From Lentinus brumalis (Eukaryota; Basidiomycota; Agaricomycetes; Polyporales; Polyporaceae): a DNA stretch of 64,000 nt. How positions within the stretch are numbered: position 1 is the stretch's first letter; every line of letters starts with the position of its first letter. The DNA lies in the NCBI GenBank assembly GCA_001792895.1, contig MARA01000024.1:310001-374000 (forward strand), given 5' to 3'. The position numbers and the translations under genes are program-made. Below are positions 25,917 through 61,414 of the stretch, in pieces. The notes beneath the pieces were generated by a model. That model was not told the DNA's origin and searched no databases. It was given only the letters and a program-made list of their open reading frames with translations.

Positions 25917-26271
25917 CTACAAATTGGGGCCCTTCCGACGCTTCGCGGCAGAGTCCTCGTTCTTTCCCTGCTTCCGCTTGGTAGACTCGTTCATCTGCGC
26001 TGAGCTCTTGGTGCCGGCCGCGACGGAGGCGTCAACTTCCTTCTTGGGGATGACGAAACTCTTCGGCCTCTTGTCAGCCCCCTTGTCCGACTGCGGCCAA
26101 TCAATTTGATGAGTGTGCTTCCAAAATTCCAGCTTGAAGGCGCGGTGAGTCATCTTCTCTCGGGCATCTTGGACTGCCTGGTCGACCTTCAATTCGCTGG
26201 GGCCAGCGACGTCGACGGCTACAATCGGTAACGTGGGTGCCTCCCCAGCGGCGGCATGGGTCATAATTTCG
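25917..26271 (-). pseudogene. 3' fragment of transposon-split FunK1 kinase gene
   Basis: The last 118 codons and stop of the kinase gene whose 5' part lies at 61414-59114. The frame starts mid-codon at 26271, directly next to the target-site duplication. It encodes EIMTHAAAGEAPTL, then FKLEFWKHTHQIDWPQSDKG, and ends in a lysine-rich tail. FunK1 proteins typically finish with such a tryptophan-bearing helix and basic tail. It has no promoter or start of its own. An internal ATG at 26264 could in principle be used, but nothing suggests it. The frame carries no other damage, so the split looks recent. Confidence 0.88.
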
Positions 26272-26279
26272 GCAGGAAC
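26272..26279. repeat. Target-site duplication, left copy
   Basis: GCAGGAAC, identical to 59114-59121. The bases on each side differ (G/C here, T/A there), so the duplication is exactly 8 bp. Confidence 0.93.
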
Positions 26280-26362
26280 CAGTGACTTCAGTTAGGCCGA
26301 ATTATTTGGCCCCGCTAGTTAAGGCGGCTCCTCGATCATTTGGCGCCTTAGTACAAGGGCCA
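26280..26362 (+). repeat. Left terminal inverted repeat
   Basis: Bases 26299-26362 match the reverse complement of the right end at about 51 of 64 positions, ungapped by eye. The outermost 20 bases are less similar. TTATTTGG-like motifs recur further inward to about 26500. Confidence 0.85.
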
Positions 26363-26520
26363 CTCGCAGATATTCGCGCGTATATACCGTCCAATTATTT
26401 GTGCACCGCCACCGTCTTGGTTCACTTGTACGATATTCAGTTCAACATTCGTATATTTGGTTCGAATATTCGGCGTTTATTTGGCCAATATTTGAGGCCA
26501 TTTGACCGGCGACCAAAAAA

Positions 26521-26591
26521 CAGGCCCAGGAATCGAACGGACGACCTCCGAGACAACAACATGGCGTGCAATCCAACTGAGCCACCGCTCC
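26521..26591 (-). ncRNA. tRNA-derived sequence (SINE-like or tRNA relic)
   Basis: On the minus strand the 5' end GGAGCGG is followed by an A box TGGCTCAGTTGG and a B box GTTCGATTCC, as in a type 2 Pol III promoter. A run of six T follows (26520-26515), a Pol III terminator. The acceptor and T stems do not pair properly, so it is not a functional tRNA gene. It lies about 160 bp inside the left repeat of the giant element. Confidence 0.5.
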
Positions 26592-26639
26592 TTGAGTATG
26601 TCCCTCAAACATAGCGTGGTGAACGTCTCCAAGGTGGCC

Positions 26640-28140
26640 CCCTCCTCCCCCCGCCGGTGGAGGATGAGGTGGTTAAATGGCTCCTACCGGCTACATGAAC
26701 CGCAGGCCGCTCACGCTAATGAGAACATGGCGGTCTACGTTCTCGCTCGCTCCGCACTGCACGCCCCGCTCTGTCCCACCGTTAGTGAGTTCTCCGTGAA
26801 CTCTGCATCTGCTCATACGTACACAGGTCCTCATTACTTACGTCCAGCAGACATCCCCAGTCGACGTCCCTACCTTCGTGCTGCCTTTGCGCGCACACCA
26901 CCATTGTCCCGCATATTGCGGCGCCCTGTGAGGCACGCAGCCGATCTCGGCGCTCACTTGTCTTCCCAGCCACGAACTCAACCTCACGGTCCTCCGCTCA
27001 CCACACCCCACATCCCGTCCACGCCCTTCACAGCGACAGCGACACGGGGTACGCCACGCACCCTCCAACTGCTGCTCTCCCGCAGTGCCCTCGCTCCGAG
27101 CTCGTTCTCGCGCCCGACACCGTGCTGTCAACACCGACCGTGCCACGCACCCACTCGAACCGCTGCTCGCCTCCGTCCTGCTCACACCGCAGCACCGCGC
27201 CCTTGACACCGACCCCCACGCGTCGTGCTCGCACTCGACCGCCACTCGCTCCCTTCGTCATCGTCATCGTGCACGACATCTCGCCGTTAATCATCGTGCA
27301 CGACACCTCGGCGTGAACACGAGCGGTCCCACTCAACCGCGGCTCAACTGCGTCCCCCTCACCCCACCATCGTTCTCTCTCTTCTCGCCCTCGCCTGCGA
27401 CTCGCCGCTTTCACTCGCGGCACACCGAGCCTCGTCACCGCCCTCCGTCTCCTCCCTCTTCTCCCCCTCGCCTGCGACTCGACACCGCGACTCGTCACCG
27501 CCCACCGCCCTCCGTCTCCCTCCTCTCGCCCTCGCCTGCGACTCGCCGCGGCACACCGCGACTCGCGACTCGTCACCGCCCTCCGCCCTCCGTCTCCCTC
27601 TTCTCGCCGTCGCGTGCAACTCCCCGCTTCGACTCGTCACCGCCCACCGCCCTCCGCCCTCCGTCTCCCTCTTCTCGCCGTCGCGTGCAACTCCCCGCTT
27701 CGACTCGTCACCGCCCACCGCCCTCCGTCTCCCTCCTCTCGCCCTCGCCTGCGACTCGCCGCGGCACACCGCGACTCGCGACTCGTCACCGCCCTCCGCC
27801 CTCCGTCTCCCTCTTCTCGCCGTCGCGTGCAACTCCCCGCTTCGACTCGTCACCGCCCACCGCCCTCCGTCTCCCTCCTCTCGCCCTCGCCTGCGACTCG
27901 CCGCGGCACACCGCGACTCGCGACTCGTCACCGCCCTCCGCCCTCCGTCTCCCTCTTCTCGCCGTCACCTGCAACTCCCCGCTTCGACCCGTGGCACACC
28001 GCGGCTCGTCACCGCCCTCTGTCTCCCTCCTCTCGCCCCCGGCGGCGACTTACCGCTTCAACTCGCAGCACACCGCGGCTCGTCACCCCCGACGTCTCTC
28101 TTCTCGCCCTCGCCTGCGACTCCTCGATTCCGCTCGTGGT
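26640..28140. repeat. Left subterminal tandem-repeat block
   Basis: From about 27360 to 28110 a composite unit of roughly 140 bp (with about 70-bp subunits) recurs several times. It carries CTCGCCCTCGCCTGCGACTC and GACTCGTCACCGCCC. The strand is C-rich and the long frames on both strands are artefacts of the repeat. No gene is called here. Confidence 0.7.
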
Positions 28141-28449
28141 CCTGCCAGGTGAGTATTCTCCTAACCTCGACGCCACGCACCTCCACTCCCCCTTCATCCC
28201 TCGTTTCCAGCTCTGGCCTTGGGCCGAGCTTTCCCCTTCCCTTGCCCTGCCGCAATCTTCTTTGGACTGACCAGTTTGCGCACCCAGTTGCTGTGCGATC
28301 GATCTCCCGCCCACCTGTCGCTTTGCCGTATCTGGGCCACCCTTGTTACCAGGTGAGTCGTCACGCACTCACTGGCATGTCTTCTCCCACTCATCTAGCC
28401 CGCACTCACCCTCTCCATATATCGTCCCGCCTGATCCCCAGACTTCATC

Positions 28450-28882
28450 ATGGCCGCTCGAGCACTCCAGGTGTGTTCTTTGATACGTCCTCGTCCACTG
28501 GTGTGCATACTGATGACGGGGTGCCTACAGATGTTCCGTTCGCTCTACGGCCATGGTGGTCAGTCCCCTGCCCAGCTTGCATGGACCGACTTGGTTCATG
28601 TGAGCACTCACACGTATTGCAGATATCTCTCGTCCTCACTCTGTTTTCCAGGGCATGCTGCGGGCTGGCTTCAGCATGCGCTCCTCCCGCGGCACTCGGC
28701 GTCGCTTCTCTCCACCTGAAGGCACTACCGGACGTGCTGTGACCGTCAAGCAGCCTCGCTCAGGATTTTTTGATCGTCGGGCCCAGGGCCAGTAAGCACC
28801 CCCTTTGCGATCTAACCTTGATTCAGCTCATTCTTTCAGTCTCAGGCGCAGGTTTGAACGCGTCAAAATCGACTACAAGTTT
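28450..28882 (+). CDS. Small basic cargo protein, 5' exons
   Basis: Exons 28450-28470, 28531-28599, 28652-28791 and 28840-28882 join in phase to give MAARALQMFRSLYGHG, LAWTDLVHGMLRAGF, an Arg-rich block and RRRFERVKIDYKF. Donors are GTGTGT, GTGAGC, GTAAGC and GTAAGT. At least one more exon should follow (candidates 29072-29140 and 29196-29310), but the end is unclear. The arrangement of a helix (WTDLVHGMLRAGF), basic strand and short second domain is reminiscent of small RNA-binding folds; I do not recognise a family. Confidence 0.5.
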
Positions 28883-31149
28883 GTAAGTGAACGCCTTTGA
28901 ATCTTGCCTCGTCTCATCTTGAGGTACTATCTTCATCTATCGCATAACGTACCTATGTCTGCACGGCATTATCTTGATACATTTGAATCGCATCTTCTCC
29001 CTGTGTGCACGCCCCACTCGCATGCTCTTGCGGCTCCCTCGGATGGACACGACGTTACATGCTCGCACTGATGGCAGATGGCCCCAGCACGAAGATCATC
29101 AGTCCTGCGCAGGAGAGCACCAGACGAGCGAGGGAACGCACCGCGGTAAGTTTGGGCGTGTTTCTTTCCTTCCTGTTCAGGGGTGGACACTCGCGCTGCA
29201 CACTGTCGCGGATGCGCCCTGTGAGCTCACTCCGAACATCCCTAGAGACACTTCTGGCCTCCCTGCCCTGGCTCGACTGGACACCCCACTCACCAGATCT
29301 GGCCATGAAGGTACGTCAGCATATGTTGCACTGTTCGCGTCTGTCGGACGCACCTACTTCCCCTGTGGTAGCCAACCCGTCGTCGAGCACCTGGACGGTG
29401 AACTTGCGTCACCGGTCTCGCGGCAGAGTGACCTCGTCGCCTCTGCGAATGAGAGCACGGCACGGTGAGTAAGTGCAGCAGCATTCGGCACGCAGCAGCC
29501 GCTCCTCATCAGATGTCGCCCGACGATGTCCTGTGAGCTCTGGCTCTTGTCCACACGCACGCGCACCACGCGTCCGCCCTCCTCCTCATGCCTCAGACAC
29601 TCGTGCTCCTGTGAGCAGCGCATGGCCGCCCGTGACGGCCGGGACGACTGGTGGGCAGGCCCGGGGCTCGAGTCGTCCAGGGGGTCATCGAAGTTGCACT
29701 GCATACGTGGGTCGACCCTTGGCTGCTTGTCGTTGCACACCACGCCTCGTCCGCAGGCCTGCTAGGGCGCGTCCTACGCCATCCGGGGCTGTTCCATGAA
29801 GACGTCCCTGTGTCACTGCCGTAGGGCACACTGCAACACTACCTGCGCTCTCACGACCCAGGGTCAGTCACGGCTCACACGGGGCACTCGTGCCGCTGCT
29901 TACCTTCGCCCACTCAGTCGACATTGCCATGCAAGCCGCGGAGTCTGCAACTTCGTCGTCAGCCAAGGTTCGTCAAGCTCAAGACCAAAGCTCCGTCACA
30001 CATCGTACTCACTGACCTGTACACAGCTGGAGGGGCCTCTTTCTGACAGCATTGTCCGATCTCGTCGCCCTGGTCGAAGGGTCCCACATCTGAGGCGGTG
30101 AGCCAATCCTTCCTGCGAGTCTCGCAGCCACGCACTTACAGGATTGTGCACTTCTCTGTTCGCGATCGCACACAGTCATCTACTCGAGCGTTCTCTTCTC
30201 GCATATCCCAGCACGTCCCATATCCCAGCACGTCGCCTCTCTCTTGTCTCTCGTCGCTCTCTCGTGTCGCCGTCTCTCGTCGCCGTCTCTCGTCCCTCTC
30301 TCTCTTGTCTCTCATCGCTCTCTCGCGTCGCCGTCTCGCGTCGCCGTCTCTCGTCGCCGTCTCTCTCTCTTGTCTCTCGTCGCTCTCTCGTGTCGCCGTC
30401 TCTCGTCGCCGTCTCTCGCTTGTCTCTCATCGCTCTCTGGCGGCGCTCTCTCTCGTCTCTCGTCTCTTGTCTCTTGTCTCTCGTCTCTCGCCGCCGTCTC
30501 TCGGCCGTCTCTCTCTCTTTTCTCTCGTCGCTCTCTCTTGTCTCTCGTCGCTCTCTCGTGTCGCCGTCTCTCGTCGCCGTCTCTCGTCGCCGTCTCTCGT
30601 CGCCGTCTCTCGTCCCTCTCTCTCTTGTCTCTCATCGCTCTCTCGTGTCGCCGTCTCTCGTCGCCGTCTCTCGCTGGTCTCTCATCGCTCTCTGGCGTCG
30701 CCGTCTCTCATCTCTTGTCTCTTGTCTCTTGTCTCTCGTCTCTCGCCGCCGTCTCTCGGCCGTCTCTCTCTCTTGTCTCTCGTCGCTCTCTCGTGTCGCC
30801 GTCTCTCGTCCCTCTCTCGTCTAATGGCTCGCATCTCGCCGTCTCGACCTTGCCCTCGTGTCCTCCCTCCGACGGCTTCGATACTGACCGCTCTGGTCCC
30901 CTGGGCACCTAAGTACATGTTTTGGTAGTATACTCATGTACGTCTATAACGCGCCACTCAACTCATCTGTTCCATCGGCGAAGGTTGCATGGCCAACCGG
31001 GCCGGCTCTTTAACCGTCTGAATCTGTCCGCGTGGTTTCTTGCGGAGGTGATGGTCCTCGCACCAGCGGCGTTTGGTGCCTTGCATTCTCAGCTCTCGAA
31101 CGCTGTGTGGAGTGGTTGAACATTGTGCAGGCAGATCAAACTGGACGAC
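28883..31149. other. Poorly resolved region within the element
   Basis: Possible later exons of the 28450 gene lie up to about 30090. From 30235 to 30830 the plus strand is a TCTCTCGTCGC polypyrimidine array. I see no complete gene. Confidence 0.4.
30235..30830. repeat. GTCTCTCGTCGC polypyrimidine tandem array
   Basis: Short units such as GTCTCTCGTCGCC and CTCTCGTGTCGCC repeat in direct orientation. A larger block of about 250 bp is present twice (around 30290-30510 and 30610-30790). The long frames on both strands are repeat artefacts. Confidence 0.85.
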
Positions 31150-33055
31150 TTACCGTTCGACCGTCTTCTGCATGCCGTCTTGGGTGTTCATGGCCATATG
31201 CGCCACATCCCCGTCGGTTCCCTGGGACCAGCTGATTGCATAGCATGCATGCGGCTCCTGCGGCATCGGTTGGCTTGGGAAACCTAACCAGCGTTCATCG
31301 TCACTCACCTCCTGCAAGCCGTCATCCCTCTGAAGTCGCATATTGTTATGCACACTCACCGGGGCAGCCTCAATCTCCTCGAGGTCAGGCATATCCATAT
31401 CGTCACCCTGCACACTGGTGAGTGAGGGACGATGACCGGTATGCGCCCCGACTCACCTCCAGCTCCATCACACCATTCTCCTCCACCTTGATGTTCACCA
31501 GCTGTGCGTCCATCCACAGAAATTGTTCTCCGCGGATGCGCGCGAAGTGTTCCCCCAACGCATCTGGGTCTGCCCCCTGTTCCACAGGACGCGACCGGAT
31601 ATTCGTCGGGAGCGACGCCCAGCAATTCTCTGGCCATTCTCCATACGTTTTCGCCCGCTCGGCTTCTTCTGGTATACGGGCGAGCTGGGGCGTCCAGTCA
31701 GTGGGTGTGGCCATGGGGCGTGCGCGGCGTGAGGGGAAGAGACAAAGGCCAATGTGCAGGCGCCGGTCTCTCTCAATTTTCTGCGGCGCTTCCTGGACAC
31801 CTAGCTCCGCCGGGTCATGTCATTGGGACGATACCATGTACATAAGCTACATTGGGGACCTCGCGAGCAGGTGCACGTCGGTGATGGCAAAGAACAGCAG
31901 TCCGACGTCGTCTAGGCGCACCCGGGTGTGCAGCAGCACCAGATCGCCTGGCTTCAACGAGCAAAAATTGGTGTTCTTGACGAGAGTGCCAGGCTTGATA
32001 CGTCGCTGAGAATCCTGCACTTGCAGCATCTGGTGGCTTGTCAGCCAACGGGTCGCTGCAGAGGTCGCCCGTACTCACCCGACCCCGGCGCGTCATCTTC
32101 GCGTACGCGGTAAGCACATTCGGGACGGTTTCTGAGAATACTTCAGTGGGTGTCCCCTCGCACACCGTATCACTCACGGCTCGGTTTGAACGTGTGAATG
32201 ATTTCCCCCAAGGCGTTTCTGTCCCCGCGGCGGATGAAGGCGACAGAGATGTCGTACTCTGCGGCTTTGCCTGCCTTCACGTGGAAATTGAGGTCCCAGA
32301 CCATGCCGGTGATCTGAACGTCGACAGGCTTGGCCTTGTAGCACATCGTGTCGTCGTTGGTCATTCCGCACGCTTGTACAGGTACCTTGCCGAGAGCGAA
32401 CGCAGGCATGCTTGCATCCGATCTGTGTGCGTACCGACGCAGTCGCCTGCCTTCGGTTAGCTGCGTGCAAATGTTAGCACTGCGTCCCACTCACTTTGTT
32501 AAGGCCTCGCTGATCCATGGCTCCAGCTCCAGCTCGTCCGGCTGGTCAATCTCCTCCGGTTCCCATAGTTGCGGCGCAGGCATATTGTCGGTTATGGATG
32601 GGTGTGCACTCGAGTATGGCCGAGCTGGGTGGACGCCCACTCACCGCGTGGCATTCACGCGCGAAGTCCAGGCCGTGCTGGTCACATGGGCGTGCCCCAG
32701 CGTCTGTGAAGCGCGTCCTCGGGGAGTTTCGGTCCGCTTCCGGCCTACAGGGCGCTGGACCTCGCGCCGGGACCTTGGTCCGTGCGCGAGGGCTTTCCCG
32801 GACCGCGTCTTGAATCTGTTGGTCGGCATCTTCGGCACGTCGGCGATCCCCGCGGCAAAGCCTCGACCCAGGTCCGTGCGTGGGGTACACCTTCCGCTTT
32901 CGACGAGATGCCGCCCTCACTGTATTGTCGAGCGCCTGCATGACAGAAGTCCCCGTTGATGCCCCCGTATATAGCAAGTCCGTGCGGGGTGCTTCCTTTT
33001 GCACTACAACGACATCAACGTCTTTGAGGACTTCTGAGGACGTGCGAGCTCTCAT
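31150..33055 (-). CDS. Multi-exon cargo protein of unknown function
   Basis: The start is MRARTSSEVLKDVDVVVV at 33055, only 102 bp from the divergent ATG at 33158. Recognisable exons: 33055 to about 32648 (basic, RRKRK), one ending WISEALTK near 32500, one containing FALGKVPVQACGM and MVWDLNFHVKAGKAAEYD (about 32460-32175), VPNVLTAYAKMTRRGR, and one with KPGDLVLLHTRVRLDDVG (about 32029-31862). Later exons near 31700 (PEEAERAKTYGEW) and 31410 are probable. The KPGDLVLLHTR strand suggests a small beta-barrel module. One junction near 32640 does not close. No family recognised. Confidence 0.55.
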
Positions 33056-33157
33056 ATCAACCCAGCCCGCTGGGCTTCCTCCTCGCCCTCTCTCTCTCTC
33101 CCCCCATCAACACCGCCGCCCACCGCCACATCCCCTACTCTGCCCCTCCCGTCTGTA

Positions 33158-35676
33158 ATGGTCAAGCGCAACAAGGCCCAGGCCCCCGACGACGACGACG
33201 ACGACGGTGAGGAGCCCCCGGCCAAAAAGCCCGCCAAGAAGGCGCCTCCCGCCTCCACAAAGAAGCCCCCCGCCACCACCCAGAAGCCCGCCACCACACC
33301 CTCCAAGGCTGCCCGGCCCGCCCGACGCCCCGGCCCGTCGTCCAGATCCCCCAGCGCGCCAAACCGCCCGGCCCGAAGAAGGTCGCCGCGTCCGGCCCCA
33401 GCGCGCCTAGCTCGGCTTCCAAGCAGGCCCGAGCAAAGGTGAGTACGTTCGGCGTTCCCCGAAAGTGCCTCAGTGTCGACGCGTCCTAGGTCACTCAAGA
33501 GGAGCCCCAGGAGGAGGAGGTTCGTGCCCGTCTTCTTTGTTCGTCCTCCCGCTGATCATCCCTCGGCAGCGGTCGCCTCCGCACTCACGCAAGGTCAGTC
33601 ATTGTAAACTCCAGTCCACTTCTGTTCGACGCTGACCCCTTCTGGCAGCGTGGACGGCGCATTGAAGTCCAGCAGGACGATGGTCAGGCGGAGGAGGATG
33701 AGCAGGTACGTCCATGCTCGCATTGCCCCCGTCATCCTGCTCAACATTACTAGGATACCCCCGTCCCTCCTTCCAAGAAAAAGAAAAAGAAGAAGTTTGT
33801 CATGGTCGACGATTCCGATGACTCGGTCGCAGAGGTAAGTCGCACAGACATCTCTGCTCGCTCCGTACTCAATGCGCCTCCGAGTGGTTAGACTCCAGCC
33901 AAGAAGTCTGCGGGGTCTCGCCCCACCGGCACGGCAGCCAAAGTCTCGCCGGCGAAGGTATGCCCCCTCCCCTTGTTCCACCGCCTGCTGACTCACGTTC
34001 CCCACCCACACGATCAGGCTGTCAAAGGCAAGCACCGCGCTCTCGAGCCCGCCTCTGAGGGCGACGAGGAGCCCCAGGAGTCAGGGGCAGAGAACGTCGA
34101 GGACGAGGCGGGCGTCGACGATGATGCCGGTGACGAGGACGATGTTGTCGTGCGGGGGATGATCGAGGACGACGGGGCGCAGGAGGAAGGTGTCGATGAC
34201 GACGGGCTTGCGGAGGGGTCGGTGGAGCAGGAGGACCCTGGTGACGAGGACTACGAGGAAGAGGGGGCGGTAGAGGACGACCACAGTACCGACGTAGAGA
34301 TCGTCTACGTGACTAAGAACAAGACTCACAACAAGGCCCAGCCTAGTGCCTCCGCGGCGCGCACCCGCTCCAAGAACGCTGGCAAGGGTTCAACGACGCC
34401 CTCTGCCGTCAAGGCAGATGTCAAGGGTAAAGGCGTCGCCAAAGCCCCCTCGACGCGCTCACGGCGCAAGGGAGTGCCGGCAGCAGCGGGGGAGTCTGGT
34501 GAGGTAGCGAAACCGACGTCGCAGCGTCGCCCCGCGAAGAAGTCCGACCCCGGCCCTTTGGAGTTCCCGTTCGCCAGGCCGCACACCGATGCCCAGACGC
34601 GCGCCCCGTACTTGTGGCTATTCAATCCCGCCTCCGACGGGGAGGACTTCGACGCCTTGCACCAAAGACTGCAGTCCCTGGCAGAAGCCCGGAAGTTCCG
34701 CGTGTTGAACTGCAAGGACCTTACCGGCTACGACTGTATCCAGTGCGCGCGCACGAAGACTGAGTGCACTCGCGAACATAACACGAAGTCCTGCCAACCC
34801 TGCACCGCTCGCGGCTGGAAGTGCTCTTTCGTCGTTGGTACGCCTCCCTTTCTGTCGCCCACATTGTACATACTGATCTAGTTTTCGACAGCGTTGGTTG
34901 CTCTCACCCCCGACTACGAATTCAGCGACATGGTGGACGCCCTCGACCTCAACATCCGCACCCTCGTCGCAACCTCGTTGGCCTCAGACTGGAGCCTGCA
35001 CGCTTGTGAGGAGCGTATGGAGGCCTTGGAGAGGCGTCTGGACGGTGTGGAGGGCGCTCTCACCCGCCTGGAGGGCGCGTTCAACAAGTACGACGACGTC
35101 TTGGGGATGCTGTCGCGCATGTGCCAGCCGTCGGTCCGTGCGGGCTCTCCCCCTCTTTCTATGTCTCTGTTCCCTGGTGCCCCGGCGGCCCCCGCGTCCC
35201 CGTTGTTCCAGCCCGCCCGCCCATCTGTCGCCTCGTCGTCGTCCTCGGCCCCCGTGCGGCAGCCCCCAGCTCAACCCTCCCCATCCTCCCGTCCCGGTTA
35301 CTACGAAGCCTGGAAGGTCCCTAGTTATGAGCCCGGTGGCGGCGCCTTGGCCGCCCACTTCTATGAACGTGCTGTGGGGGCGGACCCCCGCACTTCGGCA
35401 GCGGCGCTTCCAAGCCACGGTCACCCGTCGGAGCCTGGCCCTTCTCGTGCCGGGGCGTCCAGTGAGGCGGGACCTTCTCGGGCCCCCGCTGCGAGTGAGG
35501 CGGCTGGATCGATGGAGGCGGGCGCTTCCCGGCCTGGCGGTCGTCGCGTCGTAAGTTTGTCACATGAACTCTTCACCGTCTCTGACTGACTCACCCAGGT
35601 TGGTTAGTTGGTTGGCCCACCCGGCCGCGCCAGGTACATGCAGTTGCCGGACGAGGACATAGAGAACCCTGACTAG
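33158..35676 (+). CDS. Acidic/basic zinc-cluster cargo protein
   Basis: A ladder of short phase-0 exons encodes alternating Lys/Arg-rich and Asp/Glu-rich tracts (KKPAKKAPP, SKKKKKKKFVMVDDSDDS). A larger exon (34019-34838) follows, ending in the cysteine cluster CIQCARTKTEC then CQPCTARGWKC, a two-half CxxC zinc site. The next exon (from 34892) has a coiled coil (MEALERRLDGVEGALTRLEG) and a Ser/Pro-rich region. The last exon ends IENPD at 35676. It may bind DNA or RNA through basic tracts and zinc; that is inference. Exon 1 has a frame shift at CCCC (33328-33331) where one extra C restores RPVVQIPQRAKPPGPKK. Confidence 0.65.
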
Positions 35677-43616: not shown

Positions 43617-43729
43617 GGTGTCAACGCAGGGAGGACTGACGGCATGAGGGGAGAGCAGAGTAAAATGTGGGCGCCTCCTATTGCGAGTGGCCGCGAAGGC
43701 GTAAGCCGGACCGGCGCTTGGTTGACACA

Positions 43730-44615: not shown

Positions 44616-44675
44616 CCTGTGACCGCCTATGTTATTAGACATGTCGCCTGCACCACAGGAAGCACTTATGGACAC

Positions 44676-48691: not shown

Positions 48692-49767
48692 ATGTCACCG
48701 ACGACGAGGGACGCGCGAATTCCACCCCTGGTAGACGCTGTCTACAAGCCGCGACAAGCCAGGTTGCGCGCCTTGCTAGGACATTGTCCCAAGAGTGGCC
48801 ACCATTTTCCTCGCGTCAGCTATGGGTTCACCGTGCAGAAAAACATCGGCAAGATTTTCGAGATAGTGAGTGCGCTCGAATATTTGGAAGGCGCCGCGCT
48901 CACGGACACCGCTAGTGCCCTTCAGAACAGAAGTGCCCGACGAGGCTGCTGGAAGACGAGACGCTTCGAGAGGATCGAGTGCGATGTCTCGTAGTCGTCG
49001 CAGCGCTGGACCCACCCCCATTCAACGACCGCGAATTTGCTAGATGGTGCGCAGATGAAGCCAACCAGCTGCTGACCAGAGTGGAGGGCGGCCTTGCCCC
49101 ACCTCATGTGGCGGCGGGGCCGCAGCATGCCAGGACAGGGGCAGGGAGCTGGCTGCTGCAGGGGCTGAAGACGGTGAGGGGGGGGAGAAGTGGAGTGAGG
49201 AACGACGAGGGCAGGGACACCCCCAACGCCGCGGGCGGAAGAGCCATGGGGGCCGGAGGATGCAAGGTCGAGGTTCGGGTGTGCATATACCACACGGTGC
49301 GTACTCTGCCCGCTGGCGAACACGGCGTGTCGCTCAACGTAACACAGGATGGAGTGCGCCCGACTACAACGACCTTGCAAGGCCAACGTCACGCCCACCT
49401 CGTAACATTGTCTATCAAACAGGAAGCGTTGCTCCGACCGCTCGGGATGAACATGGGCTCGCGCAAGATTGCGGATCGCCTCGAAATGTGGGAGATCTTC
49501 GGCGAGAAGTGGATGCCTGCACTCCCTCAAAATCATCCCCTCATCCTTTTGGAGGGCCAGGGCGTCATCTTCCGCAAACAGGGCATCACGGCCGTGCCGG
49601 ACCTGGACCACTTCGTCCTCCTCACCCTGCCAGCCCTCGTCACGGACCAGCGCCCGCGGATCCCCACATGGCTGGCGTATGCAGCCTCCAAGTGTGCGCC
49701 CACATCGCCAGCAGCGGGGGCCCCATCGAAGCCCGCCCGGGGAGTTTGTCCTCAGGAACCACCATGA
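48692..49767 (+). CDS. Cargo protein, first of a paralogous pair (324 residues)
   Basis: Exons 48692-48865, 48916-49296 and 49348-49767. It starts MSPTTRDARIPPL and contains KVEVRVCIYHT at the second splice site, then LLRPLGMNMGSRKIADRLEM and PLILLEGQGVIFRKQGI. The 51-bp second intron is a multiple of three and open, so it would be read through by naive gene finders. Its place after YHT is the same as in the paralogue at 50621. The stop TGA (49765-49767) overlaps the ATG of the next frame. Function unknown. Confidence 0.62.
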
Positions 49768-50441
49768 CCGTGTGCAGACCCCCTCTCACTCCTTCGAAAA
49801 GGTCTCGACACCCGGGGGCCCAAGACGACGATGTCGCACGTGACAGCCTCCTCTTCAGCAGCGGCAGTGATAGGGACGAACCTCCCCGCCGACGCCCGCG
49901 TTTGCACAGAGCAGCGACAGCAAGCTCAGACGGCCATTCGGCGACGCGGATCGGCCCGCCCATTTCCAGCCGGCGTGCGTCAACAGCGTCGTTGGCCCGG
50001 TCGATGAGCCCTATTGAGCTGAGCGATGAGGAAGACCCCCTACCCTTCCCACCGTCTTCGCAGGCCTCCACGTCGGAGGCGTCAACATGCCACACGCCCA
50101 GCCGCTCTCGTATCGCCAGCAGGGCGCCATCGACAGCGTCGTCGGCCAAGTCGATGAGTCCTATCGAGCTGAGCGACGACGACGACGACGTGACGCCCTG
50201 GCCCTCGTGCTCGCAGCCGTCCACCTCCGAAGCGTCTACATCGCAGGTCGCAACGTCTCGATACGGCTTGGAACACGCTGCCGCCTCAAGTTCCTTCACG
50301 AAGATGGTGGAAGCAGGTCCGGGGGCATATTATGGTTGTCCTTGGGAGGCGTTTTCCCCTCTGAGTTCGCCATCCCGTTCTCGGGGTGCACCTCCCGAGG
50401 TGACGGTGGAGGGGAAGGGCAAGGGGAGGGAACAAGCGTGA
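49764..50441 (+). CDS. Ser-rich protein with repeated SIM-like motifs
   Basis: A 225-codon frame beginning MTVCRPPLTPSKRSRH. It holds two copies of a roughly 45-residue unit. Each has SMSPIELSDEED or SMSPIELSDDDD followed by a Ser/Thr-rich stretch with STSEAST. PIELSDEED fits the pattern of a SUMO-interacting motif (hydrophobic core next to acidic residues). Its ATG overlaps the stop of the 48692 gene as ATGA, which is unusual in a fungus. It may instead be a 3' exon of that gene reached by splicing. Confidence 0.45.
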   Translation: MTVCRPPLTPSKRSRHPGAQDDDVARDSLLFSSGSDRDEPPRRRPRLHRAATASSDGHSATRIGPPISSRRASTASLARSMSPIELSDEEDPLPFPPSSQASTSEASTCHTPSRSRIASRAPSTASSAKSMSPIELSDDDDDVTPWPSCSQPSTSEASTSQVATSRYGLEHAAASSSFTKMVEAGPGAYYGCPWEAFSPLSSPSRSRGAPPEVTVEGKGKGREQA

Positions 50442-50620
50442 TAGAGGGGTAGCCTAGTGAGGGACGTCGGCCTATATCATGTATATATGCACCATGCGAC
50501 CTCAACGCAATGTCTCGCTAACGCACTCCTCGCTCTGGATCAGGCGCTGGGACAACCTTGCGATTGTGTCAGCGCAGGCGCCGGGGCAGCCTGTCGTCTC
50601 TCCTTCATTCGCTCTTCGAC

Positions 50621-51611
50621 ATGAACGACGTCGCTCTGCCCCCAGACATCGAGTCGGATCCTCGAGTGAAAGCGCTGACATGGAAGTACATCCCCGATGT
50701 GAAGACCTGTCAGGAAATTTTGCACGCATGTCCCCTGGGCGCCGGACACACTGTCGCCTTGAATTTGGCCAGCAAGAACGGTGCGAACGTCATATTGGTG
50801 ATACAAAAGGTCTGTGGTTGTGAACTCTGTGCTCGAATAACCAGACATGAACCAACCTGCAGTGCAAAGGCCTTCCGGAGACAGGCGAGAAGTGTGCAGG
50901 CCATGGGCAACTGCTTTCGCTGCAACTGAGCGCACATGCGCAAGCGGCGTTTCTAACCGAGTTGGCCGTACAGACACCACCCGTACATCCGGAGCCTGGT
51001 TTCGCTGTATGGTGTCTCAAAAGGGCCATTGGCCTGAACGATGTAGTGCGGGCAGAGCAGCAAGGGGTGGCCCCGGACAAGGTGATAGTGGTTTACGTCT
51101 ATCACACGGTGAGTGCTTGGTAGCGTGAGGGATGACGAACAGAGGTTTTGATCATTGGCAGGCAGGAGCCGATCCAAGGCGGGTGGAGGTGAACGTCGTA
51201 GCCCTGGAGCATGGTGCATTATTCAACTCGAGGCACCCTTTGGTTCTGAAGGCACTGGGGCTGGAGATGCACCTGCAACCGCCGTCACTCGCGGTGGACA
51301 TGTATGATTTCTTGTTGGACGAGTGGATCCCGTTGCCGAGAGGGGACATGCGCCTGCGGCCAGGAGAAGGGCTGATCCTGAAGCGTCAGCACGTGGAAGT
51401 TGCTCGAAACCTGCACCAGTATGTCGAGGCGACGCTCCCGATATGCATGCGGGAAGGCAGCGGCAAATTACCCCGATTCTTTGCAAGGCGGGCGGAAGTC
51501 GGAAGACAGGGTTGGCCCCGGCGGAGCTCAGGATGGACAGCGGGGGTGGAATCACACATAGATGACGAGGTTGAGGAGCAGGAAGACTCGGACTGCGAAA
51601 TCGTGTCGTGA
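50621..51611 (+). CDS. Cargo protein, second of a paralogous pair (294 residues)
   Basis: Exons 50621-50809, 50863-51108 and 51162-51611, all phase 0 and undamaged. It starts MNDVALPPDIESDPRV. Shared features with the 48692 gene are KVIVVYVYHT at the second splice site, LVLKALGLEMHLQPPSLAVDM, and LRPGEGLILKRQHV matching LLEGQGVIFRKQGI. It ends with an acidic tail (EVEEQEDSDCEIVS). The shared intron position supports descent from a duplication within the element. Confidence 0.68.
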
Positions 51612-52285: not shown

Positions 52286-52644
52286 AAGAAGAGGTCACAG
52301 GGTGGTTGATAGCATTCGAAGAGGTGCCGAACATGGACTTTCACATATAATGTCATGACGGTCGCGATCACGTTGAGGAAAATGAGTACAGTACACAGAG
52401 GGCCTTGTTACCGCTGCGGCGTGTTGAGCGCGTACAGTCCCCTCAGGCCGTCAAGTGTGGATGGGCCCACCCCACCTCAGCTCGGCAACCGGCGCCTAGT
52501 GTTTTTTCTCTGCCTCCGCCCCCGCCCCGCCGCCCGCTCACAACCCCCCGCCCCCTTGCTGCGGGCGTCCCTGCCTAATCTCGAGCTGAGGAAACCAGGA
52601 CCGTGGGGAGGTGAACTGTGCAGGTCGCACCATATGGTGTGCAC
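52286..52644. other. Intergenic, no gene seen
   Basis: GC-rich sequence between the small homeodomain-like gene and the nested element. Confidence 0.5.
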
Positions 52645-53005
52645 CTATTGCAATAGAGACCGGTAAATAGCCTGCGCGCTATTGCAACACGTACCGGCTC
52701 CTGTGTACAGCCACCCCGGAGGCTCCGGAAGCCACCATATTCTGCCTAATTAGGCAGCTGAGCTAATAGCCAGCCCGGAGGCCTCCTTCTTGGGCGCTTT
52801 TTTGGCTCTTTTTGGCCTCTACAGCCACAACAGCCCCGGAGCCCATAGTGGCTGTGCTATACCAACCTCCCGGCGCTTTTTTCATGTTTTCTGGCCCAAT
52901 ATGGCAACTTACTGATGATGGCTCTGCAGTGAATGTTCCTGCCACCTTAGTACCTTCAGTTCTTATCCGTTTTACATGAAAGTAGGTGCAATGGATTCGC
53001 ATTTT
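52645..53005 (+). repeat. Foldback element left arm
   Basis: Begins CTATTGCAATAGAGACCGG and ends GGATTCGCATTTT. It is the inverted copy of 54578-54938. Confidence 0.92.
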
Positions 53006-54577
53006 GATGCCCTATCCACTGGTGCTATGTAGAATAGGTGGCATGCCTTCCCAACTGCTGCATACTCACAATACTACTGAAATACAGTCACATACAGTAA
53101 ATAGTGCAAATTGCGGTCACCTTCTATTCAATCTTGACATGTCTAAAATGTCTGAGCAGGCAGAAAGTGTCTCCATTTGATGTCATCCGTTGTAGCACCA
53201 TATAATCCAGTAAAATGATGTACTTCTGCTAGATCAGCCTGCTGCTTTATAACCTCCACCATGTCCATAGTTGTTCCGTTTGCCCTGCAATCATCTACAT
53301 ACTAGCAGACAATATATTATAATCTTTATGTATAGTGGCCAACAGTATACCATTTACAATGGCTTCATAAATTTGGGGTTTATGTTGGTACCATGACTTG
53401 GGAGGAAACCAAGCCTAATGAATGAGCTCATAATGTACATAGAGATCATTGCATAATCTATAATACAGCAGACATACATGTACCCAGTCATAGCTTAATT
53501 TCTCTTATCGGGCTTGGATTGATTCACTGGTGTTCTTATCAATGACCAGCAATGGTTGGCAGATCACCACATGTTGCCTCCATGGATAATCATTGTGATG
53601 CCACCAATAGGTCCTACAAGCATGCAGCTTTTTGTCACAGTCTTTGCCATGCCAAATGGAGCACTCAACACTGAGATATAAGCCAGATTGTCCAAAAAGC
53701 GCCCAAATTAAGACCCATCTTAATGTTCTGCATCATTGTTGACACAGATCCAGCCATTGCCACAAGTGTATGGTGCCATAAATGGATGCACAGCATAGTA
53801 TACAATATATATCTTGACTTCTGAGATCATGTGGTATGTGGGCAGATGGGTAGAACTTGAATATCAGTTGCTGCAGTAGGCCATCTTCCTGGTCATTCTG
53901 TACCACTCATATCAACATCTTTCCACCTAAAAATCTCCAAACACATTTATTGTAGCACCATCCAATGTGACCATTTCTGTGGTACAGATCTGCTTATCAG
54001 GCCAAAACTAGTGGAGTTATAGGCCATTCTTTCTTAACACTGATAAGGCCCTATAGATCTTGTTTGTTGGCGGATAGGGCTGAAATTTGGTAGACATGTA
54101 GACCATACCAAGGCTATAATATGTAGCAATTTTCGTAAAGTTTGAACTCCAAGAAGGCAACATATTCAGTGCAAGAATGTGCAGGGTTGCAGCAATAAGG
54201 GTTTTGCTTAAGTGTGGCTACTGTATACCATCTATTGCATTGCAATTGAGTCCATATCATTGAAATGGTATTTATGTATGTTAGTACCAGTTGACAGAGC
54301 AGACAGTGAAGTACTGAAACCAATACAAGGCTGGTACTTAGAAATACATCTAGGGTGTAATTAGTACACTGATGTATCAAGTTAATATATATAGTGCCTC
54401 ATTAGAAAGCAGCATTTAATACCTCTTTGGTGGCACCCAAAGTGTAAAAATTGAACAAGATATGACCCCAGTGTATATGATGTTGTCTTTATATGCCCAT
54501 TTTATTGATCAAATCGACCATACAGCACCTGTATATCAGGTATTTGGGTATCTCATGCTCTAGGTAGATAGAGCATT

Positions 54578-54938
54578 AAAATGCGAATCCATTGCACTTA
54601 CTTTCATGTAAAACGGATAAGAACTGAAGGTACTAAGGTGGCAGGAACATTCACTGCAGAGCCATCATCAGTAAGTTGCCATATTGGGCCAGAAAACATG
54701 AAAAAAGCGCCGGGAGGTTGGTATAGCACAGCCACTATGGGCTCCGGGGCTGTTGTGGCTGTAGAGGCCAAAAAGAGCCAAAAAAGCGCCCAAGAAGGAG
54801 GCCTCCGGGCTGGCTATTAGCTCAGCTGCCTAATTAGGCAGAATATGGTGGCTCCCGGAGCCTCCGGGGTGGCTGTACACAGGAGCCGGTACGTGTTGCA
54901 ATAGCGCGCAGGCTATTTACCGGTCTCTATTGCAATAG
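54578..54938 (-). repeat. Foldback element right arm
   Basis: Inverted copy of the left arm. The two differences are in CTCCGG(A/G)AGCC and GTA(G/A)GTGCAATGG. Confidence 0.92.
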
Positions 54939-54995
54939 AACTACAACAGCAGCTGCAGGTCGCCAATCCTGACATCCACCGTACCGAACGGGACC

Positions 54996-57868
54996 ATGGC
55001 GGAGGTGACTGAGTCACATAATTCGGCGACCGACGCAACGACCGTGTCAGCGGGTGCAAGTGTACCCAATGTGAGTGCGCTGCTGGGTTGGTGGTGACAT
55101 ACATGGCTGATGTCGCGCACCACATGAAGGGCGACACACGCCCTTACAAGTCGGTACGGCTATCCGCTCACCCAGCGGTGATAGACTGCCTGCGACAAGG
55201 GTTGCCAACATACCAGGTATATCTGGCCCAGCGTAAGCAGAAGGAGAAGAGGGACTGGATCAAGAAGAAGCAGGAGGAAATCGTGACCACGTTCGGCCCA
55301 AGGCAGCTGAGCAAGTACTCTGCGGAGGACATTCGCAAGGTGACATTCGCGACGGGGCGCTCACGATGACGTCTACTCACGGTGACATATCAGGCGGTGA
55401 AGAACTGGTACAACAACGCACGTAACCGGACGTGTACCGACATTGTGCACACGGACGACGCAACCAAAAAAGATGACGATGATCACGAAGACGACGACGA
55501 CGCAGGGGAGGAGAAGGAAGAAGACGATGCGATTCCAGGGGCGGTGAGCAACAACCCGTTCATCAAGATGCTCAAAGGGAGGGCGAAGACGACGTGGAAG
55601 CACTGGTGGGAGATCAGCAAGGACCCAGACCTGCAGAAGGCTATGGCGGCGCTCCGGGGACACCGACGATCGGCCAGAAAGCCCAGGTGGCTAAAGCAGA
55701 GTTTGAGAAATTGTCGGAAGATGATCAGGCTGATTGGGCTAGAAGGGCGGCGGAGGCGAGCAAGCTGCCTGTGGACCAGTGTTTCATGTACGTGGCATGA
55801 GCGCATTCCTGTGACCTTGCATTGAAACTTCCACGGCAGCAACCAGGGCGGATTCACCGCGCTGCTGATGAGCATGTTAGCCGGTGTCGTCGGTCTAGGG
55901 CCACTCCAGATTGGCATGGGAGCGTTCCATGTTGCAATGGGTACGAAAGACAACGTCAACCATTTGGATATCAAAGAGTGCGGGAATGTTGTGCCTATGC
56001 TGATCTGCTCCAAGCTGACACGTATACAGATTCTCTATCACGAAAGATGGCAAGGGAATCTCGTACTGTCACTTCGAGGGGGGGCCCCCGCCGGGGGAAG
56101 GAGAGCGTTTGAAGCGCTGGTTTGAGTCCGTCATCCGTGAGTACCCCGATGCCGCACAGTCCACTGGGTATACTGACTGAAAGGTTATAGCTGACAATCC
56201 TATCCTGAGCCAGGGTGCGACCTGCGACAAACAGGGGCAGCCCGCGCTGCCTGAGTTCGACGGGAGCGCCAGCATAGACGAGTCAATCTCCCTTTGAAAG
56301 GATATTTGAAGGAGTCATGGCGTGAGTGATATCCCATGGGTTGGGGGCGCTCTCTGATGTGCTGAGTTGCAGGCTTCCAAATGCCGGAGGGGAAAGACCT
56401 CGATCTGGACGCGCTGGTCCGATCACCAGCACAGTACGTAGGAGCAGAGTGGGTTGATGCATTCGCTTTTGAGTGGGAGGCGAAAAGGGCATATGGCTCT
56501 ATCATCAACCTCTACACGAGGCTATGGGGCGCACAAGAGGAGGGTTGCCCCATGAAGTACCTGGGGGGTAGGGCGGCCATGCCGGGAGAACGACTCACTG
56601 TGCTAGCGACGCCCCGCAAAGAGAAACGGCAGTCGAACACGACCCCCGCCAGCACGCCCCTGCCGCTGAGGACGAGCGTCCCTGACATCCCATCCTCGCC
56701 ACCCCGAGGCACGTCGCCAATGGAGATGCCGTCGAGCACGCCCCTGCCGCTGAGGACGAGCGTCCCTCACATCCGATCCTCGCCATCCCGAGCCACGTCG
56801 CCCATCGAGATGCCGTCGCCGGTGACCGGTCATCTTCGCGAGATTGACGAGATCGAGGACAGCTCGATGCCGCCGAGCAGCCCGGACGCCGTCTTCACTG
56901 GCCTGCCTATCGAGGAAGTGACTCAGCTGCCTATTGAGGAGGCGCCGAGCGGCAGTGAGGTGACGAGCGGTAAGGACGTGCCCAGGTTCGAGCTTGCGAG
57001 AGGAGATATGGGCGAGGGTGCATTGACGACCTCCGATACCGCACGTGTTGTGTTGCCTCTCCCCGACGCCCCAGAAGAACAGTTGGCGGCTGCCCGAGAT
57101 TCGAGAGTAGATGGGGGGCAGAGGGTGGGGTGCCGGAGAAGGCAAACGGGAAGGCGAAGACGGCCGCTAGAGGACGGGGGAAAGGGCGCGGTCGAGGACG
57201 AGGACGGGGAGGGCGAGGAGGTGCAGGCGGGTCACGTGGCGGCGAGGGCGAAGCTGGAGAAAAGGGGAGCGACGAGCTGCCGAAGAAGGCGGGTGGAGGG
57301 CGGGGGAGAGGTCGCGGTCGAGGACGAGGGAGAGGAGCAGCAGCTGCTGGCCGTGGAGGCGAGGGCCGACTGGGGGAAAGGGGGGGGCCTCCATGGACGT
57401 CGACCAAGTGGCTCCTCCGGCAGGAGGGGAGGGGCTTATCTCAGGTGGGTCGGCGGCGGATGCGCCCCCCATTGACGGCAGCGTGCAAGAGGCGGCAGCG
57501 ATCATGCCCATGACGGATGTGACTGAGCGATCGCATGAAACCGCTTCCACGGGGGCAAGGAGAACGTTGCCCCTGCCGACGCACCGGTCATGGCGAAGGT
57601 CGGGGGTGGGCGAAGGAGCGGTCGTGTGGCGAGCATGGCGCTCAAGGCCTTGGCTCCAGAGTGCGCCGCCAATGTGCCATCGTCCGCATCGACTCAGCGC
57701 AAGCGCAAACAAGAAGTAGGAGGGCAGGCCGTGGAAGGCGAGAGCGTCAAGCGGGCGCGCACGGACGGCGACGGTGACGTGCCCACTGGGAACATCCAGG
57801 TAGTTGCTCCAAAGGCTAAGGGGCGCGGAAAGCAAATGAAGACTGCGGAGGTTGTAGAGCAGCCATAG
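54996..57868 (+). CDS. Large homeodomain-like / Arg-Gly-rich cargo protein
   Basis: Exon 1 (54996-55070) MAEVTESHNS, exon 2 (55130-55339) with RPYKSVRLSAHPAVIDCL and KYSAEDIRK, and exon 3 from 55394 with AVKNWYNNARNR then a long Asp/Glu tract. After a shift at GGGG 55656-55659 (one G short) the frame continues KAEFEKLSEDDQADWARRAAEA, a helical block like that in HMG-type regions. Further exons hold GLGPLQIGMGAFHVAMGTKD, FSITKDGKGISYCHFEGGPP and AFAFEWEAKRAYGSIINLY. The C-terminus is Pro/Ser-rich, then basic and Gly/Arg-rich, ending MKTAEVVEQP. Exon boundaries after 55800 are approximate and more G-run shifts are likely in the Gly/Arg region. Likely nucleic-acid binding. Confidence 0.55.
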
Positions 57869-58213: not shown

Positions 58214-58264
58214 ATGTCTCAATTTGGGCGGGTGCGATCATACTGAATCCGTGATGGTGACCTG

Positions 58265-58610
58265 GCGTGCCGACGAGATAGGCACCAGCGAGGGGAGTGC
58301 GTTGCAGAGTGCGACATGGGGGAACATGGGAGGGGCGGGAGCGTGGCGCGCGGCCATGACCTTCGACATCTCCTGGGGCGGAGGACAGGAGTGAGTACTG
58401 GGCGAGCGGGAAGGGCGTGCAGATGAGTTAGGCACCAGCGAGGGGGATGCGTTGCGGAGTGGATGTATGGAGGGTGCACTAGAGAGCCGCGGGGCGAGCC
58501 CAGGGGGGTGTGCGAGAATGAAGGGCGCGCACACAAGTTGATGGTGCGAGGAGAAAGGGCGGGCGAAGGTGTTAGGCGCCAGCGAGCGGGGTGTGCGGTG
58601 CGACGTCGGC
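58265..58610. repeat. Right subterminal tandem repeat (about 150 bp unit)
   Basis: AGGCACCAGCGAGGGG followed by TGCGTTGCAGAGTG or close variants occurs near 58278, 58430 and, more diverged, 58573. Confidence 0.7.
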
Positions 58611-59031
58611 GGGGTGGGCGCGGGGGTAGACGGGCGCCGGCGATCGCAGTGTGCGGTGCGACGCGCTGATGGGCGCTGGAGTATATAGACGCGGTGCGAC
58701 GCGACGCGGGCGGTGGAGACGCCGGCGAGCAGAGAGGGGAGGAGGGACTGCGCCTGCGAGTATTTGGGAGGGGGCGAAATATTTGGAGCGATGAGGACGG
58801 GCCTCGGGACAGTGGGCGGACCCCCGCTCTGGGTAGCGCCGGCAGCCGGCGGGAAGCGGCGAGGAGGGTATGTGGGGCGTGGGCGAGGCATAGGCGCGCG
58901 GCGCGGGGAGGGCTCGAGGCGCCAACGACGACGACCAGAGTGAATAATTCGACAGATAGTTGGGTGCGCCCCCGTCGACGGCGACGATGAGGAGGAGGCA
59001 CACGGATATTCGCCAGCCAAATATCGAAAAT

Positions 59032-59113
59032 GGGCCCGTGTACTAAGGGCCCAAATGATTGACTAACCGCCTTAACTAAGGGTTCCAAATAATTTGTAGT
59101 AGCTGATACTAAT
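59032..59113 (-). repeat. Right terminal inverted repeat
   Basis: Inverted partner of 26280-26362. In reverse complement it starts ATTAGTATCAGCTACTACAA and then AATTATTTGG. Similarity is about 80% over the inner 64 bases and weaker at the tip. Confidence 0.85.
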
Positions 59114-59121
59114 GCAGGAAC
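59114..59121. repeat. Target-site duplication, right copy
   Basis: GCAGGAAC, identical to 26272-26279. On the minus strand it is GTTCCTGC, inside the FunK1 codons Val-Pro-Ala. Confidence 0.93.
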
Positions 59122-61414
59122 AGTGGTCGACTGCGCGGAGGCTTGGATCGCGGCAAGCAGATCTTCATCCCCATCAGCCAACGCTGTGAGATCGAGACGG
59201 CCCGTGGCAGGAGCTGTCTTCGGTGACGTTTCGGGACGAGCCTTGGGCTTGCCCAGAGCGTAATAGCCCTTGAGCCACTCCAACACAGCAGAGAGAAGGC
59301 CGTTGATGGGGTGACTCGCAGGCTTTGCATTGTCAGAGCCGCTCTCCTTTGGTGTCAGAGCAGACACATAGAAGTGGAGGAGGTCTTGCGTGGTTACGCC
59401 CCCAATGACGCCTGCGCCATTAGTCAACAGCGTCAGATCGATCTCCCCCTGCTTCACGGCGGCGTATTTCTGCGGACCGCAGGTGGAGCCGTCGTAGCTC
59501 TCGGAGTAGTCATCGAAGTACCGGTAGAGGAACAACCCCACATGGTCATCCTTGATGTTGTGAGGGAGGAAGCGGACTGCGAAGTGTAATAGGACGTGGA
59601 AGATGGATTCGAGGTCGTCCGGAATGTCGACGGTCTTCTGCTTGTTAAGCAGGCAGTTGACGGAGAGGAATTGCCAAGTACCCTGCGTGGCATGTCAGCG
59701 CGATACTTCACATAGCAGTCAATTCTAGCACATACCGTCCTTTCCAGTATGAGACACTCTCCTAATGCGGCGTTGACCTCCGCAGGCTCACCCATCATGT
59801 ATTTCGCAGCCAGTTCCCAGTCATTCAACATGCCATACCACACGCCGTCCTTCGACCTGCAAAGGAGTATATTCCCTGCGCTGATGTCGCGATGGATGTA
59901 ACCAGCCTTGCACGCTTGTTCGTGCGCTGTGAGTACGCAACAGTCAACTGAAAGGTATCAGCGACAAAGAAGTGAGCGTACCTTGAATGCAATTGAGGAT
60001 GGCCATAACCAATTCGGCACCACGATCGAAGTCGCTGAGCGGCTTCCCGACTTCCTCAACAACCAAACGGTAGTGCTGGTGAGACTTCAACGTGCATTTC
60101 TCATCGCCGTGGACAGTAGGCCAGTTCTTGTAGGAGAGGGTGTCTTGTCCGGGCAGATCACCGTGATACAGAGCAGTGGGGACATACTTGACCTTCGCGC
60201 GATTGAGTGCTTTCAAAACAACACCCTCCTTCTGCAAGCTGGGGTGGTCGATGCGCCATGCATCCTTCAGGTACACGAACGACCCCGTAGGCTGGCCTTC
60301 GTCGTCCAACGGAGGCTTGCCAGTGTCGTTATCGAGAGGAAGAGCAACGTACCCGCGTGTGCCGCGGCCGGCGACACCGGGAGCCTGAAAGTGGGGCTTT
60401 CCAACGGCGAACCAGTGATCGGTCTCCGTCTCCTCATCGTAGACCTTGAGCTTCCAGAGAGGCCACGATTCGACAAGCGACGCCTGGAACAGTTTCGCCG
60501 CATAGTCATCGTCAGCCTTCGCGCTCTTTCCCGCGTAGTCGTGTACCAGAGAGTGAAGGGGATCGGTCTTCTCGATACGCACGGCAGTCGGATCGTGCCC
60601 CTTGAACTCGGCGCTCTTCAGCCGGCCATAGCGGACGAGGAACTCGGTGAGCCGTGCACCCTCGGTGGCGTACCGGACCTGTTTGGTGACGACGATGCCC
60701 GAGTGATCGAAGAGGATGATGCGAGCGGCCTCTCGAAAGAGTAAGAGCATGTAATGGAACCTGCGTTGCTGATGTTTGAAGACGAGCTCGGCGTAAGACA
60801 GAATCTGGCCAAGGACCGCTCGGCGTTCCTGGGCCTCGGGCTCGTTCTCTGGCTTCCGCTCATCGAATGGATCCTGGTTGGTGGAGTGCAGCTTGCACTC
60901 GATGCACAGGTCGATCCTAGACCAATCCGTGCGCCTTGACTCGTCTCCGGCGGCCGTCTGACTGGACATCGGTGCGAAGTTTGTGGGGTACATGCCGCAA
61001 TCAATAGCCTGCTTGGTGGAATCATTCGGATCGGGCTTCCAGGCGGTGGTTGCAAAGGTTTGCCCAGGGAAGATACGCGCTTGATTGAAGGCCGACGTCT
61101 GGCTTGACATCAGAAACACATGATGAGGTGGTTTGCCAGTACATCGTACTCACAAAGTGTTCGTACATATCTTTCTCTGTCTTGAACTTCGGAACATTGC
61201 TGAAGAGGTTCGGAATAGCCTTCTTCGATTGCGAAGGCGGTGCGAGGAAGTAGTGCTCCAAGAGCTCGTCGAGAGAGACAATGTAGTTCTTGCCGCGCAT
61301 GATGTCGAGCAACTCAAGGCGAATGTCCTGCAAAGAGGGTATAAACGCTGAGTCCTCTCCATGACGGACAGGCGTGATCGAGTCGCTGAAGATGCCGCTG
61401 CCAGTGCCAGACAT
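59114..61414 (-). pseudogene. FunK1 fungal-type protein kinase, 5' part, split by the giant transposon
   Basis: Exons 61414-61154, 61098-59982, 59926-59736 and 59682-59114, introns of 55, 55 and 53 bp, no frame damage. It starts MSGTGSGIFSDS. The kinase domain has a catalytic loop AGYIHRDISAGNILL (His471, Asp473) and the family's variant MLNDWELA in place of DFG. After residue 712 the gene meets the element. Its last 118 codons are found 32.8 kb away at 26271-25917, giving an original length of 830 residues. As it stands the frame reads on into the element to a stop at 58219, adding about 298 foreign residues, so a kinase-containing chimera could still be made. Confidence 0.9.

Follow-up and report, generated by a model that had tools for sequence, protein, structure and literature searches.

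A Likely Insertion of a 32,835-bp KDZ Transposon with Kyakuja-Type Ends into a FunK1 Kinase Gene of Lentinus brumalis

Introduction

Kyakuja elements are described as having 7-bp target duplications and CA..TG ends, and Zisupton and Dileera elements as having 8-bp duplications (Kojima 2025, PMC12730594, in the sections available). Kyakuja elements that bear a TET gene have already been published. According to the available text of a 2019 review (PMC6431247), DNA transposition falls when the cargo exceeds approximately 6 kb, although larger cases, natural as well as artificial, are known. The stretch analyzed here, called the window, is 64,000 nucleotides in length and comprises positions 310,001 to 374,000 of Lentinus brumalis contig MARA01000024.1, which is part of the 53.4-Mb, 136-contig assembly used for all genome searches and is labeled C54 below. 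It contains a 32,835-bp KDZ transposon with Kyakuja ends that very probably, judging from its sequence, entered a FunK1 kinase gene. Its core of approximately 30 kb is also present at a second site, between a different 7-bp repeat.

Element Ends and Target Duplication

The element extends from 26280 to 59114 and has CA..TG termini, as defined by comparing the ends of the family copies. It is bordered by a 7-bp target duplication, CAGGAAC, whose left copy (26273-26279) and right copy (59115-59121) are identical. No strand is assigned to the element or to the duplication. An earlier note on this DNA had placed the right end at 59113 and had reported an exact 8-bp target-site duplication, GCAGGAAC. 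This sequence is found at both borders, as the note stated. The length of the duplication and the position of the right end had to be revised.

Searching the genome with 201 bp from each element end gave 8 matches for the left end and 12 for the right. Eight of the latter are right ends, all of which terminate in ACTAATG, and the remaining four are left ends picked up through the inverted repeat. Immediately to the left of the duplication, the six copies that have both ends carry G, G, G, T, C, and T. Because every right end finishes in ACTAATG and the left-hand base varies, the eighth base of the earlier reading, a G, is the element’s own last base, and the right end lies at 59114.

The comparison of duplications took in 12 insertions, of which six are the family copies with both ends and six are nested. 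Each of them starts with CA and finishes with TG. The 7-bp duplication is exact in 11 of them (C126 retains 6 of 7 bases), while the 8-bp reading is exact in four and was dropped after this comparison. These counts bear on the earlier classification of the element as a Zisupton type making 8-bp duplications. All eight bases do match at the FunK1 site, and active Cryptococcus KDZ elements make duplications of 8 bp or 4-8 bp in the available text of PMC12810828. With so few of the insertions fitting 8 bp, and the extra G ending all eight right ends found, a Zisupton-type element is improbable. The element is classed as Kyakuja-type on its ends and duplication, since 7-bp duplications and CA..TG termini fit the published Kyakuja rule.

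Inverted repeats had also been noted at the two ends. They are present and exceed chance: the best local alignment scores 71, whereas 300 randomly drawn pairs of 150-bp pieces from inside the element reach no more than 28. They are, however, subterminal. The outer 20 bases of the two ends align poorly, and the clear repeat starts at base 21 of each end and continues inward. In the alignment of the two ends, the left repeat covers bases 21-111 of the element (26300-26390, plus strand) and the right repeat covers bases 21-113 counted from the right end (59002-59094, minus strand). The two are identical in 73 of 95 alignment columns in C54, and in 51 of 62 in the copy on C35.

The Interrupted FunK1 Gene

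The FunK1 gene lies on the minus strand and is divided by the element. Its N-terminal part (59115-61414) has modelled exons at 61414-61154, 61098-59982, 59926-59736, and 59682-59115, and its severed C-terminal part is located at 25917-26272. When the element and one 7-bp copy are removed, the parts join in phase to give 830 residues and a stop codon. Joins shifted by 1 or 2 bases reach a stop within 55 residues beyond the junction. The reading of a KDZ transposon that split this gene was thus sustained, and the rejoined gene contains no other stop or frame break. The Pkinase_fungal domain (PF17667) was matched on two exons with E-values of 5.8e-17 and 1.9e-7.

Orthologs that are uninterrupted at the site were identified in Cerioporus squamosus (74 and 70%) and Lentinus tigrinus (65 and 63%). 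Those of both species run on into the severed C-terminal part. The junction stretch itself is poorly conserved, and the sequence aligns on both sides of it. The proposal that the insertion is recent keeps two indications, namely the 0.79% substitution between C54 and C35 described below and the otherwise unbroken FunK1 reading.

Another kinase-like gene, with weak Pkinase and fungal kinase matches, is present on the minus strand at 15696-16589 of the window.

Family Copies and the Mobile Unit

Other copies with the same ends were found in the genome, as the earlier note had suggested looking for, with duplications of 7 bp rather than 8 bp. Two are long and have both ends resolved. The C35 copy (766006-815993) is 49,988 bp in length. 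The C126 copy (1389043-1412313, reverse strand) is 23,271 bp in length and is internally deleted, without the middle part that bears the transposase and TET genes. Three short copies, on C46 (828956-829706, 751 bp), C110 (12824-13588, 765 bp), and C47 (801350-802111, 762 bp), are 96% alike, contain the ends only, and have exact 7-bp duplications. These are classed as non-autonomous elements that keep the family ends only. C59 contains a 217-bp piece of the left end and nothing more of the element.

The cores of the C54 and C35 copies, approximately 30 kb in length, are collinear. They differ by 211 substitutions in 26,831 aligned bases (0.79%), a count that takes in one 1.1-kb alignment between nested inserts, and by 33 small length differences. 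The left 4.8 kb of the element is more diverged between the two and is rich in tandem repeats. It includes two arrays (27374-28138 and 30246-30821, within an unstranded region at 27374-30821) that differ between copies. The flanks of C35 differ from those of C54, and the C35 copy lies between another exact 7-bp duplication. Because this sister copy has other flanks and another duplication, the stretch of approximately 30 kb acts as one mobile unit and likely moves as one piece.

A diverged relative is present on C82. Its left end has diverged, and its 14 DNA matches to the window keep the order found there from 31842 to 55966. The longer matches are 64-74% identical, and two short ones in repeats are 88 and 91% identical. 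An exact-motif search for its right end found none. In this diverged family, the left end at C82:2485702 and the right ends at C117:59998 and C35:165 share the 7-bp flank CGACAGG. The assembly may have split one insertion between C82 and the start of C35, with C117 a duplicate.

Nested Insertions

A nested non-autonomous element of 2,328 bp (52628-54955, unstranded) is located within the C54 copy. It has CA..TG ends and is flanked by the duplication CAGGTCG (52621-52627 and 54956-54962). An exact empty site for it exists in both C35 and C126, and six further near-full-length copies (95-98%) are present in the genome. The C35 copy bears four nested inserts of 2,213, 2,268, 2,213, and 14,112 bp, and the single insert of the C126 copy, 13,307 bp in length, contains KDZ matches. 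The three long copies thus hold six nested inserts, and for five of these a sister copy provides an exact empty site. The exact test applied to the remaining insert gave 12 mismatches in 43 positions, probably due to a neighboring 1-bp difference.

Copies of the first family are themselves targets of a second one, which has CACC..GCTG ends and 7-bp duplications (window 52628-54955 and the C35 inserts). The 14,112-bp insert of C35 is a relative of this family.

The claim that the whole 32.8 kb moved as a unit is therefore to be narrowed. The core of approximately 30 kb does occur at the second site on C35, whereas 2.3 kb of the C54 copy is a nested insert. Without that insert, the C54 element is approximately 30.5 kb in length.

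The same inserts bear on a Starship-like origin, in which a tyrosine recombinase would move the giant element and the KDZ gene would be a passenger. The size and cargo would suit a Starship, and a 2026 report, in its available text, describes Starships in a basidiomycete. Against this, the CA..TG and 7-bp signature is also found on other inserts, including the C126 insert with KDZ matches inside. A search of the genome for DUF3435 returned zero matches, as did the control searches. A Starship-like origin is scarcely credible.

Conserved Coding Blocks

Ratios of nonsynonymous to synonymous substitution rates (dN/dS) were calculated frame by frame between C54 and C82 by the Nei-Gojobori method. 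Frames were picked by lowest ratio and by known genes. Values of dS were often greater than 1, and pieces with saturated dS were not computable. Antisense and other-frame matches also arose, a few of them with a low ratio (for example, 0.11 opposite a TET exon).

Nine coding blocks, including the transposase and TET genes, look to be under purifying selection. The TET gene (38386-39361, plus strand) has a dN/dS of 0.05 in its last, catalytic exon and 0.17-0.35 upstream, and the transposase gene (39738-43616, minus strand) has values of 0.07-0.27. To their left are G1 (31850-32625, minus strand, 0.06-0.19) and G2 (34453-35088, plus strand, 0.24-0.51), the latter with a weak Zn2Cys6-like match that is below the cut-off. 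To their right are G5 (43706-45575, plus strand, 0.11-0.25), G6 (45676-47643, minus strand, 0.10-0.20), which comprises one or two genes, G7 (48710-50021, plus strand, 0.18-0.36 where computable), G8 (50588-51608, plus strand, 0.13 where computable), and G9 (55175-57025, plus strand, 0.17-0.24 in the main frames and up to 0.59 in others).

All 27 exon pieces compared were matched in C35, 25 as a single stretch and the two of G9 in two stretches each. The pieces came from outside the broken front exons of the transposase gene. The C35 stretch of G2 covers 112 of 129 residues. G5 is family-specific, with strong genome matches in C54, C35, and C82 only. Of the 13 loci with G6 homologs (collapsed from 17 matches), 11 have a KDZ match no more than 12 kb away, the family’s own three included. 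This and the TET linkage counts below used 92 loci collapsed by hand from the listed KDZ matches, and more matches exist. Searching Pfam with ten cargo pieces at E-values up to 1 gave no match over the cut-off, and earlier pieces of G6, G7, and G9 likewise gave none. A scan of the window against Rfam also gave no match.

The block order bears on whether the mobile unit is shorter, comprising the transposase and TET genes in approximately 10 kb, with the rest consisting of chance later insertions and captured DNA. Nested inserts occur in all three long copies, and for one 2,328-bp part this account is borne out. The published KDZ elements whose sizes are given in the available portion of PMC12810828 are also 9.2-11 kb. 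However, the entire core, enclosed by the same ends, is present at separate places in C54 and C35, and the diverged C82 keeps the block order with low dN/dS. Among the genome matches to both ends, no other pair of these ends encloses a shorter KDZ unit. The shorter unit is quite improbable, and a mobile core of approximately 30 kb is preferred.

KDZ Transposase

The transposase gene encodes a KDZ domain (PF18758) and a CxC2 cluster. The KDZ domain was matched on one exon with an E-value of 2.7e-28. In a composite reading, it was matched over positions 1-217 of 217 at 1.4e-45, and CxC2 at 1.1e-25. In an alignment of 13 sequences, D423, E608, and E611 are invariant and D545 is nearly so. We take these four to be the catalytic residues of the KDZ transposase. 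The nearest database match is a protein of Earliella scabrosa (57%, across 74% of the region used as the query).

The transposase exons of C54 differ from those of C35 by single-base lengths, and these differences in C54 may be assembly errors. Exon 1 of the C35 transposase is broken by a 2,213-bp nested insert.

Both KDZ, with at least 159 matches counted per exon, and Plavaka, with 97 matches, show strong expansion across the genome.

TET/JBP-like Dioxygenase

The TET gene has modelled exons at 38386-38571, 38622-38771, and 38828-39361, and the protein modelled from them does not differ between C54 and C35. By sequence, it matches the solved structures of CcTET (E-value 2.6e-7), the best match, and NgTET. 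Its predicted fold matches CcTET best; the model is of modest quality (mean predicted local distance difference test score 65.5) and was used for fold class only. A TET protein of Polyporus arcularius is 98% alike over 68%.

AG-type TET proteins have Gly or Ser at the place of CcTET residue 331 and Asp at that of 337, and PE-type proteins have HxE in place of HxD (Kojima 2025, PMC12730594, in the sections available). Gly331 and Asp337 shape the dual activity of CcTET on 5-methylcytosine (5mC) and N6-methyladenine (6mA), and conventional TET proteins have Asn or Asp at the 331 place, which stabilizes 5mC and blocks 6mA (PMC11040006, in the portion available). The element protein has the motif HFD, which is HxD and not the HxE of the PE type, and it retains the distal His. 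It has Asp at the 331 place and Ala at the 337 place, unlike the AG type. The Asp is identical in 15 of 15 rows of the family alignment. Three other TET proteins from the same genome have Gly and Asp at these places. The element protein is predicted to prefer 5mC.

The two kinds also differ in location. Of the TET genes of the other (Gly/Asp) kind, 19 of 29 matches were used, and 16 of these 19 have a listed KDZ match no more than 6 kb away. The same is true at only three (C54, C35, and C82) of the 19 loci like that of the element, collapsed from 40 matches. The TET kind of the element therefore mostly sits away from KDZ genes in this genome.

Discussion

The preferred explanation is an entry of the Kyakuja-type element into FunK1 by way of 7-bp staggered cuts made by the transposase. 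The KDZ/CxC2 protein would recognize the CA..TG ends and the subterminal inverted repeats, and the same protein, or that of a relative, may also move the 751-765-bp copies. By oxidizing methylated bases, the TET-like enzyme could shield the element from silencing, and the other seven coding blocks would have accessory functions.

Several observations weigh against this explanation. Within the same assembly, no empty FunK1 allele was found: the left flank matched itself only, and the right flank, besides its own position, hit 11 FunK1-like stretches of weaker similarity; neither flank has a second allele there. No intact transposase reading was found in the two long copies C54 and C35, and we infer that movement was provided by an unseen or earlier intact copy. 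The Tet_JBP match (PF12851) scores 20.8-22.4 bits and is below the cut-off of 34.9. The first two Kyakuja families are stated to have no terminal inverted repeats (Kojima 2025, PMC12730594, in the sections available), and clear subterminal repeats are present here.

A broader proposal, with about an even chance of being correct, is that this is a giant Kyakuja lineage. It would have a nine-block unit of approximately 30 kb, a gene set kept by selection across diverged families, and a further kind of TET with a pocket like that of conventional 5mC enzymes, and it would exist beside ordinary Kyakuja elements with CcTET-type enzymes.

For this unit of approximately 30 kb with a DDE-type transposase gene, the sequence displays the ends and duplications together with sister copies, nested inserts, and empty sites, and the diverged relative on C82 retains the gene order. 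The family would be a system for studying how large DNA is handled by a KDZ transposase and which functions the passenger genes serve, and for asking whether the two TET kinds of this genome guard different transposons from silencing.

Comparison with Known Systems

No report of a Kyakuja unit of approximately 30 kb was found in the open-licence literature; the available sections of Kojima 2025 do not cover family lengths. The largest element of a mushroom transposable element library is approximately 42 kb, with its group unnamed in the available text (PMC9674265), which weighs against any claim of a size record.

Starships, the Polintons and other giants covered in the 2019 review (PMC6431247), and the 180-kb Teratorn are likewise large mobile units with many genes. 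They use other transposases or recombinases, and the available text mentions no KDZ gene for them, whereas the present element has one. Zisupton and Dileera share the KDZ transposase superfamily, with an 8-bp duplication in the sections available rather than the 7 bp found here. KDZ1, KDZ2, and KDZ3 of Cryptococcus neoformans (PMC12810828) are also mobile, have inverted repeats, and insert into genes. They are approximately 11, 9.2, and 10 kb in length, have CxC1 where the present element has CxC2, and make duplications of 8 or 4-8 bp; the portion available mentions no TET gene.

CcTET of Coprinopsis cinerea (PDB 7vpn, 7w5p, and 8jkk; PMC11040006, in the portion available) has HxD and the distal His in common with the element TET, and its Gly331 and Asp337 are replaced by Asp and Ala. 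The TET-positive Kyakuja elements of Agaricomycetes (PMC12730594) share with the element a KDZ transposase, an adjoining TET/JBP gene, 7-bp duplications, and CA..TG ends. Compared with these elements as they are described in the sections available, the L. brumalis element has subterminal inverted repeats, a core of approximately 30 kb with nine coding blocks, and a TET without the AG-type residues.

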